This document shows positions 4,233 through 64,000 of a stretch of DNA of 64,000 bases, one piece after another. A program made the position numbers and the translations under genes. Origin of the DNA: Bacteroidia bacterium (lineage in GTDB: Bacteria; Bacteroidota; Bacteroidia; B-17B0; Aurantibacillaceae); assembly GCA_020846025.1 (NCBI GenBank), contig JADLER010000240.1:1-64000 (forward strand). The letters are read 5' to 3'. Below the pieces are notes generated by a model. That model was given only the letters and a program-made list of their open reading frames with translations, was not told where the DNA came from and did not search any database. Each line of letters opens with the position of its first letter. Within the stretch, counting starts at the first letter, position 1.

Positions 4233-5348
4233 TTATTGTGTAATAAGCTGAATTAACTTTTGCCTTTCTTGATCCCAATTATTCTCTACTGCAGCAATAA
4301 TGGTATTACTTTTATATTCGAGGTAATTTTGACTATTTATTAATTCGATTATTTTCTCAGCAATATGTGAAGGTTGGTGATTGTGAATAAACAATCCAAT
4401 TTTATATCTATCAATAAGCATCTGAATTTCTGGTAACTGAGTAGCTAAAATTGGAATACCCGAATGAATATAATCGAATACTTTATTTGGTAATGAAAAA
4501 TGGTAATTCAAATTCGTATCCTTATCAATGGTTATTCCTATATTTGCATTAGCAGTATAATGGCGTAACGAGGTTGCAGACATTTTATCAAGAAACATTA
4601 CTTTTGTGCTTAATTGTAACGAAATCACCATATTTTTCAAAGTTGAGATTACATCACCACTGCCAATAATTAAAAGTAAATACGTATCATCTAAATACTT
4701 AAAAGATTCTACTAATTCCTCTGCACCTCTTTGCACATTTATACCTGCACCTTGAAATATGATTATCTTTTTTCCATAAGGAAGCTTTAACTCCTCTCTC
4801 GTTTTTATGGTTTGAAGTTTGGGATATTGCGGAATATTCCTCACAAAAATAAATGGCACCTGGTATTTATTTGTAAAATAATTGGCAATACTTTTATTTA
4901 CAGTAATACATTTATTAAGTTTTGGTACAATCCACGATTCAATCCACTCCCAAATTTTCTTCTTAAATGAATTTTTTTGTAACTCAGGAACTTCGCAAAA
5001 AATCTCATGACTATCATAAATTAAAGGTATGTGTTTTATTTTTGATACTAAATAGTTAGGTAGTAAGGTATCAAGGTCGTTTGAAAATAAAACATCAGCC
5101 TTATTAAATAGCAAAACAAAAAATAACCGAATATTAAACCAAAAGTAAAAGACTGGGCCTTGTTCAAAAAGCAAAGACATGCGTTTACAAATGTAAGGTC
5201 TTTTCTCGAGTGGACTGGAATGCTTCAGTTTTCTCCCAACCAACAACACATCATAATCTAAATCTACAAATACCTGGCAAGTACGCGCAACACGTTGATC
5301 GGTTGCTAAATCATTAATTACAGAAACTATCACTCTTTTCTTTACCAT
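4233..5348 (-). CDS. glycosyltransferase family 4-like protein
   Basis: A 371-residue protein with the two-Rossmann layout of GT-B enzymes. The N-terminal half has NDLATDQRVARTCQVF and the acceptor-side NDLDTLLPNYL and YDSHEIFCEVPEL. The C-terminal half has IIFQGAGINVQRGAEELVES, LLIIGSGD and a donor-binding region LPNKVFDYIHSGIPILATQLPEI with the conserved Glu. The family moves sugars from nucleotide donors to lipid or polysaccharide acceptors at the inner membrane. No polysaccharide gene cluster surrounds it, so the product is unknown. It begins 32 bases after the stop of the MeaB gene on the same strand and is probably cotranscribed with it. Confidence 0.85.
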   Translation of the reverse strand: MVKKRVIVSVINDLATDQRVARTCQVFVDLDYDVLLVGRKLKHSSPLEKRPYICKRMSLLFEQGPVFYFWFNIRLFFVLLFNKADVLFSNDLDTLLPNYLVSKIKHIPLIYDSHEIFCEVPELQKNSFKKKIWEWIESWIVPKLNKCITVNKSIANYFTNKYQVPFIFVRNIPQYPKLQTIKTREELKLPYGKKIIIFQGAGINVQRGAEELVESFKYLDDTYLLLIIGSGDVISTLKNMVISLQLSTKVMFLDKMSATSLRHYTANANIGITIDKDTNLNYHFSLPNKVFDYIHSGIPILATQLPEIQMLIDRYKIGLFIHNHQPSHIAEKIIELINSQNYLEYKSNTIIAAVENNWDQERQKLIQLITQ

Positions 5349-13316: not shown

Positions 13317-14462
13317 ATGCACAACACTTTACATTCACAATTTAGTTTTTGGGAAACTCAAACCTATTTTAACAATATAGATTTAGCTGTTATTGGTAGT
13401 GGAATAGTAGGTTTAAATGCTGCAATTCATTTTAAAAAGAAACATCCAAAAGCAAAAGTAGTTGTGCTAGAAAGAGGCATTTTACCAAACGGAGCAAGTA
13501 CAAAAAATGCTGGCTTTGCCTGTTTTGGTAGTGTATCAGAGCTTCAGACTGATTTAGAAAAAAATAACGAAAATGATGTTTGGCATACTGTTGAAATGCG
13601 TATTAAAGGCCTAGAATTGCTTAGAAAAACCATAGGCGATAAACATCTCCATTTTCAGAGATTAGGAGGTTACGAACTATTTACTTCGAAACAATTATTT
13701 GAAAAAGCTTGTTCGAGTATTGATGATTTTAACAAAAAAATAAAAAGTTTAACAAAATCCAGTAATACCTATCAAGTTTCAAATAAACATATTAGTCGTT
13801 TTGGTTTTAAAAGCATAGAAGGCATCATTCTAAACCAAGAAGAAGGTCAATTAGATACTGGAAATATGATGCAATATTTATTACAATATGCGATGAGTCT
13901 TGGTGTTATTGTACTTAACAATATTTCAGTTTCAAAAATTAACGACCTAGGAAATAAAGTTATCTTAAATACAAATATTGGCTCTATTTACTCTAAGCTT
14001 GTAATTGTTGCTAATAACGGATTTGCAAAACAATTATTAAAACTTAAAGATGTAAAACCAGCAAGGGCACAAGTTTTGATAACAAAACCTGTAAAAAATT
14101 TAACTATAAAAGGAACTTTTCATTATGATGAGGGGTTTTATTATTTTAGAAATGTAGGCGATCGGATTTTATTGGGTGGTGGACGTAACTTAGATTTTGA
14201 GACTGAAACAACCCACGAGTTTGCATTTAATCATAAAATTCACCAACAGCTTGATAAACTTTTAAAAGATATGATTTTACCTCATTCTTCTTTTGAAATA
14301 GAACAGCGCTGGTGTGGCATTATGGGAGTTGGAAGCGAAAAAAAACCTATTATAGAAAAAATATCACCTCATGTTGTTTGTGCTGTTAGAATGGGTGGTA
14401 TGGGAGTTGCTATTGGTTCGTTAGTTGGAAAATTAGCGATTGAAAAGTTAAAGAAAGTATAA
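13317..14462 (+). CDS. FAD-dependent oxidoreductase (DAO/GlcD-like)
   Basis: A 381-residue flavoprotein. The ADP-binding motif LAVIGSGIVGLNAAIHF is near residues 23-39, followed by the acidic VVVLERG. The conserved stretch GASTKNAGFACFGS contacts FAD in the DAO family. The C-terminal part has a substrate-domain strand GTFHYDEGFYYFRNVGDRIL, the flavin-closing GGGRNLDFE, and CAVRMGGMGVAIGS. The family oxidises amines or amino and hydroxy acids; the substrate cannot be read here. It is divergent from the coiled-coil repeat protein gene and converges on the beta-helix lipoprotein gene with 29 bases between. Confidence 0.85.
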   Translation: MHNTLHSQFSFWETQTYFNNIDLAVIGSGIVGLNAAIHFKKKHPKAKVVVLERGILPNGASTKNAGFACFGSVSELQTDLEKNNENDVWHTVEMRIKGLELLRKTIGDKHLHFQRLGGYELFTSKQLFEKACSSIDDFNKKIKSLTKSSNTYQVSNKHISRFGFKSIEGIILNQEEGQLDTGNMMQYLLQYAMSLGVIVLNNISVSKINDLGNKVILNTNIGSIYSKLVIVANNGFAKQLLKLKDVKPARAQVLITKPVKNLTIKGTFHYDEGFYYFRNVGDRILLGGGRNLDFETETTHEFAFNHKIHQQLDKLLKDMILPHSSFEIEQRWCGIMGVGSEKKPIIEKISPHVVCAVRMGGMGVAIGSLVGKLAIEKLKKV

Positions 14463-14491
14463 ATAATCAACTCCTTATTTAATCAATTTCA

Positions 14492-15976
14492 TTATTGAAA
14501 ATGATAGGCACCTGCAGAAATTGTTCCAGTTCTAGTAACACCAATAATATCAGGAATACAAATTGGATAACCCGAAACAGTTGGTATATTAACATCTCCG
14601 ATGCCAATGGCTGCTGACCCTGATTTTATTTTAAAATTATAAGACGACGGATCTTCAAAATTAATACTTCCTGAAGTTACATTGGCATTAGCTGTAATTA
14701 AAGTTGTTGTTGGTATTGAACCATTAATATAGTTATTGTTAATTTTTACTGTATGATAACTTGGATAATCATAAATCTCTGTTTCAAATTCATTACCCCT
14801 AGAACCATCAATTATTGTATTGGCGATATAAAAACTATCAGGCCATGCATCAGTTCCATCATAATTACCTAAATAAAAAGAAGCTTGATCTGCCCTTCCT
14901 CCATCTTGATTATAATAATTAGCAAATGTATTGTGCAATAATGTACAATTACCTCCCAGTGTAATAGCGGCACAATATTCTTTACAATTTGCCACTACAT
15001 TGTTTGCAGCCCAAATGTTATAAGCCTGTGTATATAAGCCCCATTTCGAACAATTTTTAATTATCGTATTTGTTAATTTTAAGTGAGTTGGTTGATTAGG
15101 ATTCAGTAAAATACTAGCTTGAATACCTATAAAACTATTCTTAATAATGGCATAATTAATTTTGTTATCTGTACTTCCTTCATTAATCCAAATCCTATCC
15201 CATTGTCCAGGCATATCTAAGTAATCCTGCTCACGTCTATCACCTTGAAAAGTTACTTCATTACCATAAGTTCCATTTACCTGTAGGGTTCCATAACGAT
15301 AAACCCACAAACCAGCATTTTGATGAAAATAAACTTTAACACCCGGATTAATAATTAATTTTTGTGTAGAATCTACTACTAACCATCCATAAATTACATG
15401 TGGTTTATCATCATCTGGTTGCCCTAGTGCTCCACCGCCCCACACCATTGTTGTATTTGTATTGGACGATAAAGTTGAATAAGGTAAATAACCATTTTTA
15501 TATTGAATGGCTTGATTTGGAAAATGATAATGCGCATCTTGACCCCACGCCTCTAATGCCACACTTTGTTGATTTCCATTTACTTCTACAATTATTTTAT
15601 CTTGAATTATTAATGGACTAAGAGCACTTGTGGGATTAACATTTACTTGAATAAATACATAAACACTATCATTTGCTAAAATTTCAACATCATTCACTTC
15701 TCTACCAGGTGTACCATCTACATTTAAAAAAAAAGGCGATGAAGAACCTCCTTCCAAACGAACGGATGAAAGCTTAATTTTTTGTTTGTTTTTGTTAATG
15801 ATTCTAATATTTCGAGTGGCTGAACCTATGGTTGTAAAAACAGTATCAAACAAAACCGAATCTTGTGAGAATGAAACGGTTGCTGAAGAGTCTGTTAATA
15901 ATTTATCTTTCTTACAGGAATTAAAACATATTGATAAACAAATGGTTACAAAAACAAAAGAAAAAAAACACCTCAT
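14492..15976 (-). CDS. right-handed beta-helix repeat lipoprotein, function unknown
   Basis: About 494 residues from the ATG at 15976. The reading frame extends 12 codons further, but a -7 box lies at 15981-15988, inside that extension, so the downstream ATG is preferred. The signal peptide ends in a lipobox-like FNSCKKD. Next comes an Ig-like domain (VLFDTVFTTIGSATRNIRI), then a parallel beta-helix region with NTIIKNCSKWGLY, NNVVANCKEYCAAI and NTIIDGSRG. Such helices often bind or cleave polysaccharides, but no catalytic motif is visible. The family looks conserved in Bacteroidota; function not assigned. Confidence 0.8.
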   Translation of the reverse strand: MRCFFSFVFVTICLSICFNSCKKDKLLTDSSATVSFSQDSVLFDTVFTTIGSATRNIRIINKNKQKIKLSSVRLEGGSSSPFFLNVDGTPGREVNDVEILANDSVYVFIQVNVNPTSALSPLIIQDKIIVEVNGNQQSVALEAWGQDAHYHFPNQAIQYKNGYLPYSTLSSNTNTTMVWGGGALGQPDDDKPHVIYGWLVVDSTQKLIINPGVKVYFHQNAGLWVYRYGTLQVNGTYGNEVTFQGDRREQDYLDMPGQWDRIWINEGSTDNKINYAIIKNSFIGIQASILLNPNQPTHLKLTNTIIKNCSKWGLYTQAYNIWAANNVVANCKEYCAAITLGGNCTLLHNTFANYYNQDGGRADQASFYLGNYDGTDAWPDSFYIANTIIDGSRGNEFETEIYDYPSYHTVKINNNYINGSIPTTTLITANANVTSGSINFEDPSSYNFKIKSGSAAIGIGDVNIPTVSGYPICIPDIIGVTRTGTISAGAYHFQ

Positions 15977-57039: not shown

Positions 57040-57267
57040 TTAATTATCAGTAAAAAATTCCTTTATATGTACATTTAGTACCTCAGCTAGAATAAGTAGA
57101 GTAGAAACACCCGTATTTATCTCGCCACGCTCTATTCGCGAAATTTGGTTTTTTGAAATACCCGATTCAAAAGAGAGTTGATCTTGCGAAATTTTTTGCT
57201 GAAGTCTTATCTCCTTTATTTTATTCCCAAGCCTTTTTAAACCTTTATTATGGCGTACATAAACCAT
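57040..57267 (-). CDS. small XRE-family helix-turn-helix protein
   Basis: A 75-residue protein that is almost entirely one Cro/C1-type HTH: LGNKIKEIRLQQKISQDQLS, then FESGISKNQISRIERGEINT and GVSTLLILAEVLNVHIKEFF. It is probably a DNA-binding regulator. No toxin gene or prophage lies nearby. It is divergent from the 1539-residue T9SS gene, with 104 bases between, so it may act on that promoter region; this is inference. Confidence 0.85.
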   Translation of the reverse strand: MVYVRHNKGLKRLGNKIKEIRLQQKISQDQLSFESGISKNQISRIERGEINTGVSTLLILAEVLNVHIKEFFTDN

Positions 57268-57371: not shown

Positions 57372-60300
57372 ATGAAAAAATTAGCCAAAACCATCTTATT
57401 AATTGCTATATATGCTATAAGTACTTTCAACCTAAGTGCCCAAAAAGGCATTAGTTGTGATAGTGCTGAAGTATTAACCTATCCAATTAATACTACCGTA
57501 ACCAGTTATACAAGCGATGTTTACTGGCTAAAAGTAACTTTGAATACGGGTGATTTTAATATTAAGGTAACCAACTACCCTGGAATAGGTAAGATTGTTA
57601 GAGGATCTGTTTATTCAGGTACTTGCACTTCCTTATCATTGGTAGGAACAGACTCTTTGCATACTCCTACCGACACTGCTTTTAATATCAATATTCATAA
57701 CGATATAAATGGCGCTATTTATTATGTCAAATTATTTAACAGAGGTGGAAGCATTACATTCAACCAAATAATGGCTTCAAATGTTTATATTGTTGGGCAA
57801 GTTGGTTTTTGCCCAGGTCAGCAAATAACATTAAATGCATATCCATCAAATGCTAATGGTGCGCAAACCTACACTTGGCAACCAGGTAATCTAAATACAG
57901 GTTCTATTACATTCATTCCATCAAACACAATCTCCCCTACAACATATACTTTAACTTATCATGACTCTGGTGGAACATTGACAACTACGGTAAATATTTT
58001 TCCTCTTACACCAGCCCAATGTAAAAATTGTGAACAGGTACAAAATGGGCATTTCGAATGGTATAACAGTAATCCCATAGCACCATATACAACCAACAGC
58101 GCTCAATATTATTTTAACCCAAACACCTATGCAACGCCCGACTATATTAATGGTTTAGGAACAGCTTTCACGCCAGCTCCAAACAGTGGCAATGCTTATG
58201 CTGGCATTTATATATATAACGCAAATGGACCTTATAGCTGGAGAGAATACTTGCAAAACCAGCTAAAATGCGCCCTAGTTCCAGGTCAAAAATATGACGT
58301 GAGTTTCTATGCTCGCTTATCGCCTCTCTCATATAAGGCTAGTAATCATATAGGAGCCTACCTGAGCCAGAACCTTATTGTTAGTAATGTTACTCCTGTT
58401 AATAATTTAAATTATACCCCTCAGGTTGACAGAACTACTGTTCTTAATTATTCAGGAACATCAACTTGGACCCAAATATCAGGTACCATAACAGGAAATA
58501 ATGAACAGTATATCACAATCGGTAATTTTTATAATAACGCCAATACAACTACTGTTACATCAACAAGTTCATCAACGGATATGATAGACGCAGCGTATTA
58601 TCACATTGATGACATAAGTGTTACTCCTGTAACTCCTACTCTTTCTGCATCAACAAATACCGTTAACTGTAATTCAGCCACAACAATAACCTTAACATCT
58701 ATTGGCTCATCATCAGTTTACACTACATGGACAGATGGTATTACTACTTACTCGGGTTCTATTGTTAATGTTCCTACACCTACAACTACTACAACATATA
58801 CTTGTAACGTAAATTTACCTTGTTCAACTTGTTTACCAATTATACAAACAATAACAATTACATTTAATAATAATTTAAACTTAACCGCTAGTGCAAATCC
58901 ATCGGCAATTTGTGCAGGGCAAAGCTCAACGCTTACTGCTAGTGGTGCAAGTACTTATACTTGGAGCACTGGTGCTACATCGCCTAGCATTGTTGTTACA
59001 CCATCGGTTAGTACCATATACACAGTTACTGGCGCCAACTCTAACTGTACAGCTACTCAAACGGTGTTAGTTGCTATTAGCGGACAGTATTGCTGCCAAT
59101 CTCCTATTTTTACAATAGGAACTGCCTCTTTATCTAATACTAACTATGCTAGTAACTCAAACGGTGGTGGCTCTGTAATTGACATATTAGGCACAATTAC
59201 CTTTACAGCTAATAGTAATATGAGCAACTACATTATTAGAATGGCGCCCACTGCCTCTATCAACATAAACACTGGCGTTACCGTTACCTTTAGTAATTGT
59301 ACCATTTTTTCATGTACACAACTTTGGGGTGGTATATTTATAAAAGACGGAGTTGGCACACCTGGCACAATAAATATTTTAAATTCGCGACTCGAAGATA
59401 TGTATATGGGTATTGTGCATAAAGGACAAAACGGCTCGGCTACTGGCTCGGCTAATTTTATAAATGTTAGTAATTCGGTACTTAATAATAACTATATTTC
59501 TATTCAACTTAGAAATTATCCAAGAGCAAATGCTACTAATGGAAGGCAAGGCTTATCTGTTACCGGCTCCACCATTTCAAGCCAATATAGTTCTACTTCT
59601 CCGCAAAATACCTTAAAGTCAAGTTCTACTTACACCTACGAGTATAATAACATTAGTAATACAAGTATTCCTTACGTTAATTTTCCAAGAGGAATAGCAG
59701 GCATATACTTATATAATTTAGAAGAGATTCCTGTTATTGTAGGTGATAGCACAGGTACTGCGGGCACTAATCGTTTTGAGAATTTAGACTTTGGTATATA
59801 TGGCGAAAACGCTTCGATTAAAGCATTTAATAACCATTTTATTTCTATTACAGGAAGCGCTAAACATTACATTCTTGGCGGTTTTCCACCACCGCCACCG
59901 CCAGCAGGCCCTGATGAAATAGGCGTGGGTATTTATGCTATTGTAACTAGCTCCGAAAATCCTTATTGGTTTCGTGTGGGAAAAGTAGCAGGCACTACAA
60001 CGCCTACCTCTGGAAACCCGTTTCCTAGTGGCAATAAATTTGAAGATTGTAATAAAGGTATTGCTGTTAACAACTACAAAGAGCCTTTTATTAAGGGCAA
60101 TGTGTTTACTACCGCTAATACTAGCATTCCGCCTTCAATAACACCATCCACACTTTATAGTTATTACAAAGCTCAAAGCGGTGTTTATATCAAAGAAATA
60201 AAATGTAATGCTACTGTTTCCTACAATTATGTTTTAAATCATAGTTCTGGTGTTTACACCTCTCATAATATTAATACATCATTTGGCTTACCAAACTTTG

Positions 60301-61991
60301 TAAAAATAGAAAACAACCTTGTGGAAGCTCCTGGCACTAACGGCTATTGCCGACAAGCAATACAGGTTGAGCAACCTTTAAGTACAGTAAATTTAGGTAC
60401 TGGCTTATTAACCGTAAAAAATAATACCTTACAAAATGTGTATAATGGTATTAAGGCTTATAATGTAAAAGGTGGTTTACAAATAAATGATAACCCTACC
60501 ATTAACCTATCGGCAAGCAAAATGCTGGGTGTGCCGGGCATTACAAATGCACAAAAATATAATTATGCCCGTACTGGTATATATGTGCAAAGCTGCCAAG
60601 ATGCCGTAGTAGCTAATAACTCTAATATTACCAGCAATGGCACTATTAATGCCTCTTACTACACCGCTGTAAAAGGTATTTGGTTTAATGCCAGTAGTGG
60701 CACCACAGGACAAGTTAATTGCAATGTAATTAGAAACATGGGGCGTTGCCTACAATTTAGTGGTACTAGCTTAAACAAAGTGGCTAAAAATGTAATGAAT
60801 GGCAACGGCGACTACCAGGGTTTTGTATTAGCGTTGAATGGTGTTATCGGCGACCAAGGTCATACAACAAATACAACTCATGATAACGAATGGAACGGCT
60901 TTACAGGTGGTTCTGCTCAGTACGCTGAAACCTATACTGAAAACAGTAATACTGCAAATACTAATTCAAGATTCTATGTTAAATCAGGCTCACCTTTTCA
61001 ACCTACTCAAAATTATTCAAACAATGGGAATCCATACGTAACACTTCCCGCTTGGGGCATTGATGTAAAAAGTGGATTATCTGGCGAAAATTGCTTAGCT
61101 TTGCGAATGATGGGTGGCGATGATAATTCAAACACCAATAATAAGAATAATGCCATGCGGACGGCATTTGATGTTGATACAACGAATGCGGATGTGTTTG
61201 AAGCATTAGCATCAGATACTACTTTTTATGAAGTGTATCAAAACGAAACCCAATACCGTAATAAACAATTGGTATATGAGCTAATTAATAAGCAAAGCAT
61301 TGATGCAACGCACACGCTTAATGAATTTTACAATAATAATCAAAACTCTAATTACCAAACCTTAACTACTATTAATGATGCCTTTGCTAATGCCGATTAT
61401 CAAACCGCACAAACTATTAATAGTAGCTTAACGGCGAATAACTTAATTGAGGAATATCAAAAACGTGTTAATGAGTTATTGATTAAATACATCAACTATC
61501 AATCTCAGCCAGTTGATTCAAACGCAACACCATTTACATACAAAACACCTGTATTTGATGGAATAGAGTTAGCAGAATTATCTACGATTGCTAATAGTTG
61601 TTTTGATAAGTATGGTAGCGTTATTACTCAAGCCAGAGTATTGATGAATAACGTAAGCAATACATTAATTGAATTTGAGGAAAACTGTAAGCCTGAGTTT
61701 AATCAACGAAAAAAACAAATCAGCAATTCAGTTGCGTCAAACGTTAATGTAAAATTATACCCTAATCCAAATAAAGGTTTAATGCAATTAGATTATGATT
61801 TAGGAAATAGCCAGCACGCCACTATAAAATTATATGATATAAATGGTAAATTAATCAGTTCATATAAATTAGATAGCAATAAGGGAATCTTACAAATGAA
61901 TGAGCAAAATTTAAACAATGGTATTTATTTTTATCATATCTTAGTAGGAGAGAAAACTATTAAAACAGATAAAGTTGTTATCATTAAATAA
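57372..61991 (+). CDS. large secreted beta-helix protein with T9SS type A sorting domain
   Basis: A 1539-residue protein with signal MKKLAKTILLIAIYAISTFN to about residue 24. In order: a pre-peptidase-like domain (25-130), an Ig/PKD-like domain (140-215), a jelly-roll module with NGHFE and QYITIGNF (218-420), two Ig-like domains (425-570), a parallel beta-helix (about 580-1290) with a polyproline insert FPPPPPPAGP, a helical part (1300-1450) and a T9SS sorting domain (KLYPNPNKGLMQLDYDL, NGIYFYHIL). It is likely anchored on or released from the cell surface. The last 236 residues are duplicated downstream. A strong terminator follows the stop. Confidence 0.88.
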   Translation: MKKLAKTILLIAIYAISTFNLSAQKGISCDSAEVLTYPINTTVTSYTSDVYWLKVTLNTGDFNIKVTNYPGIGKIVRGSVYSGTCTSLSLVGTDSLHTPTDTAFNINIHNDINGAIYYVKLFNRGGSITFNQIMASNVYIVGQVGFCPGQQITLNAYPSNANGAQTYTWQPGNLNTGSITFIPSNTISPTTYTLTYHDSGGTLTTTVNIFPLTPAQCKNCEQVQNGHFEWYNSNPIAPYTTNSAQYYFNPNTYATPDYINGLGTAFTPAPNSGNAYAGIYIYNANGPYSWREYLQNQLKCALVPGQKYDVSFYARLSPLSYKASNHIGAYLSQNLIVSNVTPVNNLNYTPQVDRTTVLNYSGTSTWTQISGTITGNNEQYITIGNFYNNANTTTVTSTSSSTDMIDAAYYHIDDISVTPVTPTLSASTNTVNCNSATTITLTSIGSSSVYTTWTDGITTYSGSIVNVPTPTTTTTYTCNVNLPCSTCLPIIQTITITFNNNLNLTASANPSAICAGQSSTLTASGASTYTWSTGATSPSIVVTPSVSTIYTVTGANSNCTATQTVLVAISGQYCCQSPIFTIGTASLSNTNYASNSNGGGSVIDILGTITFTANSNMSNYIIRMAPTASININTGVTVTFSNCTIFSCTQLWGGIFIKDGVGTPGTINILNSRLEDMYMGIVHKGQNGSATGSANFINVSNSVLNNNYISIQLRNYPRANATNGRQGLSVTGSTISSQYSSTSPQNTLKSSSTYTYEYNNISNTSIPYVNFPRGIAGIYLYNLEEIPVIVGDSTGTAGTNRFENLDFGIYGENASIKAFNNHFISITGSAKHYILGGFPPPPPPAGPDEIGVGIYAIVTSSENPYWFRVGKVAGTTTPTSGNPFPSGNKFEDCNKGIAVNNYKEPFIKGNVFTTANTSIPPSITPSTLYSYYKAQSGVYIKEIKCNATVSYNYVLNHSSGVYTSHNINTSFGLPNFVKIENNLVEAPGTNGYCRQAIQVEQPLSTVNLGTGLLTVKNNTLQNVYNGIKAYNVKGGLQINDNPTINLSASKMLGVPGITNAQKYNYARTGIYVQSCQDAVVANNSNITSNGTINASYYTAVKGIWFNASSGTTGQVNCNVIRNMGRCLQFSGTSLNKVAKNVMNGNGDYQGFVLALNGVIGDQGHTTNTTHDNEWNGFTGGSAQYAETYTENSNTANTNSRFYVKSGSPFQPTQNYSNNGNPYVTLPAWGIDVKSGLSGENCLALRMMGGDDNSNTNNKNNAMRTAFDVDTTNADVFEALASDTTFYEVYQNETQYRNKQLVYELINKQSIDATHTLNEFYNNNQNSNYQTLTTINDAFANADYQTAQTINSSLTANNLIEEYQKRVNELLIKYINYQSQPVDSNATPFTYKTPVFDGIELAELSTIANSCFDKYGSVITQARVLMNNVSNTLIEFEENCKPEFNQRKKQISNSVASNVNVKLYPNPNKGLMQLDYDLGNSQHATIKLYDINGKLISSYKLDSNKGILQMNEQNLNNGIYFYHILVGEKTIKTDKVVIIK

Positions 61992-62961
61992 TATCTATTT
62001 AAAAGTAATAAGGCTTACAGCCTTATTACTTTTATTTAAAAGTAGTTTATTATTAAACAGTCAAAATTTAATTAACAATGGCAACTTTGAAAGCTATTCG
62101 GTTAGTACATATGGCTGTGCTTATAATTTTTCAATGGTAACCGTTTGGCAACAAATAAATTCACCCGATCATTTCACTACTTTATGTACACTTAGTAATT
62201 ATGGTGTTCCAAATAATGATTTCGGCTCCTTATTTCCAAAAAATGGCAACGCTTATATTGGTATAAGTTGTTATAATTTTGGTATTGAAGGAAAAGAATA
62301 TATCTATCAACAACTAACAAATCCACTTATTTTAGGTAAATCTTATTACACAAGTTTTTTTCTTTCAAAATCTGATAGAGCAAGAATTGCCACAGAAAAA
62401 ATTGGAGCATACTTTTCTGTTTCTCAACCAACAGTTGCATCTTCTATGGATGCATTTCTTGCAACACCACAAGTAGAAAATCACTCAGGTTTTTTAACAG
62501 ATACAGTTAATTGGGTTAAAATTGAAGGCTATTTTACAGCACAGGGAGGGGAGCAATATATAACTATTGGTAATTTTAACAGCAATGCAGATACAGATAC
62601 TTTACATACAGGAACAACTAATCCTTTTTTTATGGATGCAGGCACAGCTTATTACTACATAGATAGCGTAAGTTTATATGATAGCTTGGATTATGCTCTA
62701 ATTACTAATATTAAAAAAATGGAGGATAATTTTAAAGTAAATCTATATCCTAATCCTACCACAAGTAAATTAAAATTATCAATTCAAAATTTAAAAAATG
62801 AGCAGTTGGGTATAAAAATAACAGATGTATTGGGTAGGGAAGTAAAAACTTTAGAATACGAAGAAGAAATTGATTTATCAGATTTAGAAAATGGTATTTA
62901 TTTTTTATCGCTTTATCAAAACAAGCAAGTGCTAACTACCAAAAAAATTATTAAACAATAA
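61975..62961 (+). CDS. jelly-roll T9SS sorting-domain protein without a normal start
   Basis: An open frame of 328 codons that overlaps the end of the large gene. It has no ATG at its 5' end; the best start is TTG at 61975. The body is one jelly-roll module (NLINNGNFESYS, KNGNAYIGISCYNF, GGEQYITIGNFNSNADTDT) homologous to residues 218-420 of the large protein, then a sorting domain (NLYPNPTTSKLKLSIQNLKN, NGIYFLSLYQNK). The hydrophobic N-terminus (RLTALLLLFKSSLLLNSQNL) is partly coded by the terminator hairpin at 62001-62033, so it may not be a real signal peptide. No promoter was seen. It could be a 5'-truncated copy. Confidence 0.65.
   Translation: MLSLNNIYLKVIRLTALLLLFKSSLLLNSQNLINNGNFESYSVSTYGCAYNFSMVTVWQQINSPDHFTTLCTLSNYGVPNNDFGSLFPKNGNAYIGISCYNFGIEGKEYIYQQLTNPLILGKSYYTSFFLSKSDRARIATEKIGAYFSVSQPTVASSMDAFLATPQVENHSGFLTDTVNWVKIEGYFTAQGGEQYITIGNFNSNADTDTLHTGTTNPFFMDAGTAYYYIDSVSLYDSLDYALITNIKKMEDNFKVNLYPNPTTSKLKLSIQNLKNEQLGIKITDVLGREVKTLEYEEEIDLSDLENGIYFLSLYQNKQVLTTKKIIKQ
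62001..62036 (+). terminator. strong terminator after the large T9SS gene
   Basis: A perfect 14-bp stem AAAAGTAATAAGGC / GCCTTATTACTTTT with a TTACA loop, 9 bases after the stop codon at 61991. It lies inside the 5' end of the frame at 61975-62961. Confidence 0.88.
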
Positions 62962-62968
62962 CAAAAAA

Positions 62969-63691
62969 ATGGGTAGTAAAGATAATACCAAAAGCATTGA
63001 TGCAACGCAAACGCTTAATGAGTTTTATAATGATAATCAAAATTCAAATTACCAAACCATCATAAACATTAATGATGCCTTTGCTAATGCCGATTATCAA
63101 ACCGCACAAACTATTAATAGTAACTTAACATCTAATAACTTAATTGAAGCCTACCAAAAACGCGTGAACGAATTATTGATTAAATACATTAGCTATCAGG
63201 CTCAACCTATTGATACGAATGCAGCACCATTTACTAATAAAGCGCCCGTATTAGATGCTACTGAACTAGCCGATTTATATACGATTGCCAATAGCTGTTT
63301 TGATAAATATGGACATGTGATTACACAAGCCAGAGTGCTAATGAATAATGTGAGCAATACATTGATTGAATTTGAAGAAAACTGTACACCTGAATTTAAT
63401 CAACGCAAAGCAGTTACAAAAAGCAATAAATTATCAAGTACTGTTTGGACAGTAATTTATCCTAATCCTAATAATGGAGATATGCGTTTAGATTATAAGT
63501 TAGGTGGTTATGCAAAAGCTGAATTTAAGCTATTTGATGTTACTGGTAAATTAGTATCTAAATATGATATTGTAAGTAATGAGGGTAGTATAGATATTAA
63601 TGAGCAAAATTTAAACAATGGTGTTTATTTTTATCGTATCTTAGTAGAAGAAAAAACTATTAAAATTGATAAAATTGTTATTATTAAATAA
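62969..63691 (+). CDS. 5'-truncated T9SS sorting-domain protein (duplicate of large-gene C-terminus)
   Basis: A 240-residue frame starting at ATG 62969. It has no signal peptide. From residue 9 on (SIDATQTLNEFY, NDAFANADYQTAQTINSNLT, NNVSNTLIEFEENC) it copies residues about 1310-1539 of the large protein at high identity, ending with a full sorting domain (IYPNPNNGDMRLDYKLGGYA, NGVYFYRILVEEK). A sorting domain without a Sec signal cannot be exported by the T9SS route, so it is probably non-functional as is, or a recombination donor. It follows the previous stop by 7 bases and has no promoter. Confidence 0.7.
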   Translation: MGSKDNTKSIDATQTLNEFYNDNQNSNYQTIININDAFANADYQTAQTINSNLTSNNLIEAYQKRVNELLIKYISYQAQPIDTNAAPFTNKAPVLDATELADLYTIANSCFDKYGHVITQARVLMNNVSNTLIEFEENCTPEFNQRKAVTKSNKLSSTVWTVIYPNPNNGDMRLDYKLGGYAKAEFKLFDVTGKLVSKYDIVSNEGSIDINEQNLNNGVYFYRILVEEKTIKIDKIVIIK

Positions 63692-64000
63692 ATATATAAA
63701 AATAATATTCTATCACAGAATTTAATTCAAAATGGAAATTTTGAAAACTATACGGAAGATGTAGGTACTTCTCATTGCGTTACTAATTTTTCATCTATGT
63801 TTAATTGGCAACAAATAATTTCTCCTGACATTTTTGTAAAATCATGTACCTTTGTCAATCATTATGGAGTTCCTAGCAATACTTTTGGTTTTTCATATCC
63901 TAAAAATGGTAATGCATATATTGGATTGGGTCTTCTAAATTTGCCATACGAAACAAAAGAATATATTTACCAACAATTAACAGTACCCTTAATTACTGGT
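63692..64000 (+). pseudogene. headless jelly-roll module, second copy (runs off window)
   Basis: The stretch is open to the edge in the frame of the upstream stop codon, with no ATG before the module. It encodes ILSQNLIQNGNFENY, then FNWQQIISPDIF and PKNGNAYIGLGLLNLPYETK, clearly homologous to the frame at 61975-62961. No signal peptide or promoter is visible. Either it is a truncated remnant or a cassette expressed only after recombination. Confidence 0.65.

Follow-up and report, generated by a model that had tools for sequence, protein, structure and literature searches.

Tandem type IX secretion cargo genes in a Bacteroidia bacterium, with a terminator-like hairpin inside the putative signal-peptide codons of a downstream gene

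The stretch of DNA considered here (hereafter, the window) comprises the first 64,000 bases (1-64000) of contig JADLER010000240.1, which is 74032 bases long and belongs to a metagenome-assembled genome (MAG) of a Bacteroidia bacterium (GCA_020846025.1; 3.24 Mb in 241 contigs). Its right-hand end carries a cluster of four consecutive reading frames, designated A, B1, A' and B2, whose products resemble cargo proteins of the type IX secretion system (T9SS). Frames that lack a signal peptide are called headless. The relevant features are as follows:

57372-61991, plus strand: gene A, an intact T9SS type A cargo gene of 1539 residues with a signal peptide, an internal jelly-roll, and a C-terminal helical region and sorting domain
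61371-61425 and 63068-63122, plus strand: 55-base block, the two copies identical to each other
61975-62961, plus strand: gene B1, a 328-residue frame counted from a putative TTG start and overlapping the end of A, with signal peptide, jelly-roll and T9SS sorting domain; mature start at about 62062
62001-62033, plus strand: terminator-like hairpin of perfect 15 bp (arms 62001-62015 and 62019-62033), inside the signal-peptide codons of B1
62660-62993, plus strand: recently shared tract made up of the B1 sorting domain and some 30 bases of 3' flank; its near-identical counterpart in B2 is at contig positions 64320-64655
62969-63691, plus strand: A', a headless 240-residue frame that copies the C-terminal part of A, homologous to it from about 62993 and without a signal peptide
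63692-64000, plus strand (stop at contig position 64621): first part of B2, a headless jelly-roll and sorting domain that has lost hairpin and signal peptide

An earlier note on this DNA had described an intact cargo gene followed by at least three frames that repeat its parts in alternating order with a period of about 1.7 kb, all visible complete copies keeping open frames and sorting domains, and much of that description stands. Gene A is intact, the order along the contig is A, B1, A', B2, start-to-start spacings are 1660-1700 bases, the 55-base identity is exact, and the T9SS type A sorting domain (TIGR04183 / PF18962) scores above curated cutoffs in all four products. Three frames do follow A, the B2 frame opening immediately 3' of the A' stop, but the array is not open-ended: once the contig was followed rightward to 74032, as that note had advised, and the modules were counted, a single extra unit of A tail plus B was found (n=1), the array terminating at the B2 stop (64621) and no further module lying to the right of B2 on the contig up to 74032.

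The same note had found no clear signal peptide in any of the three downstream frames and no ATG in two of them. The latter are B1 and B2, A' having an ATG at 62969; the former holds for A' and B2, while B1 proves to have a signal-peptide-like head encoded across the hairpin. Signal peptides were judged by sequence inspection, without a dedicated predictor. On this basis, the signal peptide of A is MKKLAKTILLIAIYAISTFNLSAQ; B1 has a signal-peptide-like head, MLSLNNIYLKVIRLTALLLLFKSSLLLNSQ/NLINNG (the slash marking the mature start), readable from the TTG at 61975 within the last codons of A; A' begins MGSKDNTKSID, with no signal peptide; and in B2 seven codons precede the mature start, with neither a signal peptide nor an ATG, GTG or TTG among them. 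The leader of about 30 bases before A' (TAACAAAAAAATGGGTAGT...) recurs 3' of B2, there without an A tail behind it, and because the identical ATG at that place has no gene behind it, the ATG at 62969 is probably incidental.

As T9SS type A cargo, the four products are therefore alike in their sorting domains, and A (together with B1, if the TTG is its start) also has the expected signal peptide; the cluster departs from such cargo in that A' and B2 have none and in that B1 apparently uses a start codon other than ATG, in overlap with the upstream gene. The AlphaFold model of B1 is poor outside the sorting domain (mean predicted local distance difference test score, 62), a sequence search of solved structures returned mainly sorting-domain relatives, and fold matches to CBM4, glucuronidases and the Epf adhesin, whose TM-scores did not exceed about 0.3, carry no weight here. 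The B1 product is probably genuine: a small secreted protein that contains a jelly-roll-like domain.

The hairpin in the head of B1 begins 9 bases past the A stop in the window and is terminator-like, with an A-rich up-arm and a T-rich tail (TTTTATTT). Hairpins between an upstream stop and a B gene are present in the window, on a second contig of the same genome (C63) and in two relatives, G018 (n=3) and G016 (n=2), each species being represented by a single genome; these seven are perfect or near-perfect, span 14-18 bp and start 6-9 bases past the upstream stop. In the stem alignment, 96.9% of cells are paired and both sides have changed in 9 of 14 pairs; none of 500 shuffles matched this, and pairing falls to 38-49% in slid controls. 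No stop interrupts the B frame, +1 relative to the gene before it, in any of the hairpins, and the distance from the stop to the mature start is constantly 1 mod 3, at lengths ranging from 58 to 70. In the translated leaders, a start containing Lys is followed by a core rich in Leu and an end of the form xxQ/N. When stems were randomised, an open frame as hydrophobic as that observed had a chance of 0.001-0.055 per element, the per-element values not being independent of one another because the hairpins are related.

A covariance model was built from the seven stems without protein information. Its best matches outside the training set (E ~1e-6) are two new junctions in which a hairpin separates an A-type from a B-type gene, one in G012 and one in G098, which belongs to another genus, and the G012 element gave p = 0.008 in the randomised-stem test. 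Weaker matches in the genus (E >= 5e-5) looked, where inspected, like ordinary terminators elsewhere. A pattern search found a hairpin-coded leader in G080, of a further genus, with a TTG directly after the upstream TAA. Overall, the same junction occurs at about ten sites. The contig of another relative (G019:C239; L140 / L156) ends exactly at a further B hairpin (ATACTGGCTATTGCTAGCCAGTAT), as if the palindrome had broken the assembly.

One alternative is that each hairpin serves simply as a terminator of the gene before it, that the B frames run open through them by chance, and that the start-less B genes are silent or have starts of their own. Stems with an A-rich up-arm and a T-rich tail do tend to read Lys and then Leu or Phe, and an open frame by itself is expected in about 60% of random stems. 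Against this explanation, the frame phase stays constant while the length varies, and hydrophobicity exceeds that of random stems in all elements tested, including the G012 element from outside the training set. In G016, where A is gone, the stem persists together with some 60 bases from the end of A, which argues that the stem serves B and not A alone, and hairpins are absent after the last gene of arrays. We regard plain terminators as somewhat unlikely, and the double-coded arrangement of hairpin and signal peptide, which recurs in relatives, may control whether B1 is made.

How B1 would be started is suggested by the junctions. No ATG occurs at a suitable position in B1-type junctions, and an in-frame TTG lies 14-17 bases upstream of the upstream stop (in G080, just after it). 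In six other T9SS cargo frames, the first codon past an in-frame stop is a TTG, located about 20 codons ahead of the mature start, and TTG initiation is therefore plausible. Translation of B1 probably begins at the TTG at 61975, inside the last codons of A. A +1 frameshift fusing A to B1, prompted by the position of the hairpin 6-9 bases past the stop and by the +1 frame of B, was set aside by argument, as it would bury the sorting domain of A inside the protein.

The final ~60 bases of A-type sorting domains (window 61935-61991; L048, L049, L050, L195), with codons TATCTTAGTAGGAG...ATTAAATAA, look near-identical across paralogues and species, and this piece is the sole part of A retained upstream of B in G016. 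It possibly embeds a promoter or leader for B. A promoter candidate, TATCTTAG, lies inside the A end and is kept in the G016 remnant; it is no more than suggestive, motif counts upstream of window genes being too noisy for a decision.

Everything said here of expression is deduced from sequence. Ribosomes finishing A, or starting B1, would hold the hairpin open, and RNA polymerase would then continue into B1; if neither were translating, the stem would end or damp the transcript. Terminator activity of the stem and its coupling to translation are predictions, and the placement of the stem 6-9 bases from the stop and within the next leader fits translation-coupled read-through. In Escherichia coli, a Rho-independent terminator a few bases past a gene is almost completely repressed, and translation near the gene end represses terminators (PMC4824070). 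In Streptococcus gallolyticus, translation of a leader into a terminator opens it and switches on the pilus genes (PMC3894217). The pil1 attenuator of the latter shares with the present junctions a translated leader that runs into or through a stem-loop terminator, and its opening by translation has been demonstrated (PMC3894217); here, by contrast, the stem would encode the signal peptide of the downstream protein itself, no repeat tract is present at the window locus, and the arrangement is known from sequence.

Sister species carry simple repeats at the corresponding position. Over 867 kb of fetched loci, counted without redundancy, roughly half of the distinct simple-repeat tracts that were found fall in signal-peptide codons of B-like genes, namely:

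G003, L148:10677-10716: (GTTTT)8 in the signal-peptide codons of a tandem T9SS cargo gene
G004, L052:12101-12122 and 13622-14614 minus: simple repeats, (GTTTT)4 among them, in signal-peptide codons of T9SS cargo genes that stand in tandem
G005, L150:11469-11488: (TGTTT)4 in signal-peptide codons
G008, L152:6127-6146 and L153:2290-2320 and 4882-4912: (TTTA)n, (T7G)n and (AT)10 in signal-peptide codons

Across 87 genomes of the family, perfect GTTTT tracts of at least four units occur only at the G003 and G004 sites, and in another B gene of G004 the ATG is out of frame with the remainder at such a tract. The opa genes of Neisseria undergo phase variation through pentamer repeats in their signal-peptide codons. 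The resemblance is that related cargo genes arranged in tandem (G003, G004, G005 and G008) have simple repeats within their signal-peptide codons; the differences are that the sister-species units vary (GTTTT, TTTA, AT and T7G), that variation there is predicted from sequence, and that the window locus has no simple repeats. By analogy with opa, the repeats in the sister species are likely a phase-variation device.

Taken together, these features lead us to propose tentatively, as something possible rather than probable, a new kind of dual-coding element: a terminator-like hairpin between tandem T9SS cargo genes, the stem of which would encode the downstream signal peptide, read from a TTG that overlaps or touches the upstream stop, such that translation would itself open the terminator and gate the next surface protein; with slippable repeats at the same position in sister species, loci of this kind would be switches of surface expression. 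If this is correct, a terminator can be reused as both a signal peptide and a translation-dependent switch, and gene callers will overlook or shorten a class of secreted proteins, since these start at a TTG that overlaps the gene before it and is hidden in a terminator-like stem.

The history of the copies is recorded in their mosaic divergence. In codon comparisons, A and A' differ with a synonymous divergence (dS) of 0.81, a nonsynonymous divergence (dN) of 0.18 and a ratio of the two (w) of 0.23, the helical part having w 0.12; the jelly-rolls of B1 and B2 differ with dS 1.00, dN 0.28 and w 0.28, and their sorting domains with dS 0.033. Outside the converted tract, w is thus 0.12-0.28, which reflects purifying and not diversifying selection. 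Identity along the repeat is very uneven, divergence changing abruptly near base 62660, and the near-identical tract of B1 and B2 stops exactly at the A' junction, where the flanks have only CAAA in common. The longest unchanged run in this tract is 39 silent-capable codons (p = 0.00045), and a weaker second tract surrounds the 55-base block (p = 0.011). The mosaic pattern for which the earlier note had proposed looking is therefore present, its strongest tract extending no further than the B sorting domain with its 3' flank. A one-step tandem duplication of 1.7 kb was rejected, divergence being far from uniform, with a 30-fold contrast in dS (0.8-1.0 versus 0.033).

On balance, we favour, as a whole, the explanation that the cluster is an old tandem set of T9SS surface-protein genes, with A' and B2 as its second, old copy, and not a cassette reservoir. 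In a single, recent recombination, the sorting domain and flank of B2 would have replaced those of B1, guided by homology on the left, and on the right the B1 flank would have been joined to the middle of a second A gene, whose head was thereby removed; B2 would have lost its hairpin and signal peptide in a separate event. Both the recombination and this order of events are reconstructions. A' and B2 are probably recently beheaded, unsecreted relics. Compared with the first B of G018, the B2 jelly-roll is 78% identical (w 0.14) and that of B1 65% (w 0.31); B2 was thus under constraint until recently and, as the better conserved of the two, probably lost its signal peptide late. A solitary headless A tail in G009 (L155:9323-9877, minus strand), a 184-codon frame without a signal peptide and apparently a relic, provides a precedent for such remnants.

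The earlier note had offered two interpretations, a reservoir for varying a surface protein or decaying tandem duplicates. The latter fits A' and B2, neither of which has a signal peptide, with the corrections that decapitation looks recent rather than a slow build-up of stops and that B1 is not headless. The reservoir, in which headless modules recombine into the expressed A and so vary the surface protein, could draw on the location of A' and B2, both headless, beside an intact gene, on the 55-base identical block and on the mosaic tracts between copies. It is highly improbable nonetheless: instead of several silent cassettes there is a single extra unit; DNA homology with A is limited to its C-terminal ~230 residues, the sorting domain making up one third of these; at the DNA level, nothing in the B modules matches the A jelly-roll (protein identity, 37%), so that they could not readily recombine into the exposed part of A; selection has been purifying; the clearest recent exchange is from B to B, in the sorting domain; and at this place, behind A, G018 has three B genes that are intact and bear a leader each. 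The kgp, rgpA and hagA genes of Porphyromonas gingivalis likewise encode T9SS surface proteins in which modules are duplicated and exchanged in mosaic fashion (PMC5266723), but strain variation of exposed adhesin domains is documented there, whereas the clear tract here is a sorting domain in a single genome. Tandem leucine-rich repeat genes of Flavobacterium psychrophilum (PMC8400371) are also consecutive paralogous surface-protein genes of changeable number; they belong to another protein family and are complete copies, in contrast to the beheaded second unit here. 'Headless' frames in tandem surface-gene arrays thus need not be silent cassettes, since a head is present in one of the three supposed examples, and the remaining two appear to be recent victims of recombination.

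A' and B2 might instead still be functional, translated without export or exported by another route, and kept by selection. Their frames are intact at dS 0.8-1.0 with w 0.12-0.28, but neither has a signal peptide, B2 has no possible start codon of the three kinds ahead of its mature start, and the low w may predate decapitation, the junction tract being young (dS 0.03); we therefore consider continued function clearly unlikely. An assembly artefact, with the A' junction arising from misjoined repeats, would accord with the fragmentation of the MAG, with an estimated contamination of 6.4%, with the near-identical tract ending exactly at the junction and with the contig of a relative that ends at such a hairpin. 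It is nevertheless very unlikely: the CAAA common to the two sides of the junction is too short for a misjoin, and with more than 10 differing positions between them, the tracts of B1 and B2 are two sequences, not one collapsed repeat.

Certain points count against the old tandem set with a hairpin-headed B1. Besides the contamination and the relatedness of the hairpin elements already mentioned, a generic terminator scan did not list the site at 62001-62033, conservation of the TTG is weak evidence because it follows from the Ile-Val codons of the upstream sorting domain, and A' and B2 have no internal stops, so that function is possible.

The surroundings of the array are as follows. A small gene for an HTH_3 (Cro/C1-type) regulator lies at window 57058-57267 on the minus strand, directly upstream of A and divergent from it. 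3' of the array, the contig carries a DegT aminotransferase gene, a PKD/T9SS gene on the opposite strand, an ABC-2 exporter pair, an FdtA-like gene and a hexapeptide transferase gene; contig positions 64746-74032 (L007:9746-19032) hold sugar-nucleotide aminotransferase genes, the exporter pair (of polysaccharide type) and the FdtA-like and hexapeptide transferase genes. These sugar and exporter genes possibly concern a surface glycan to which T9SS type A proteins attach. The named relatives of the array genes come from MAGs of uncultured Bacteroidota, many of them of groundwater or lake origin.

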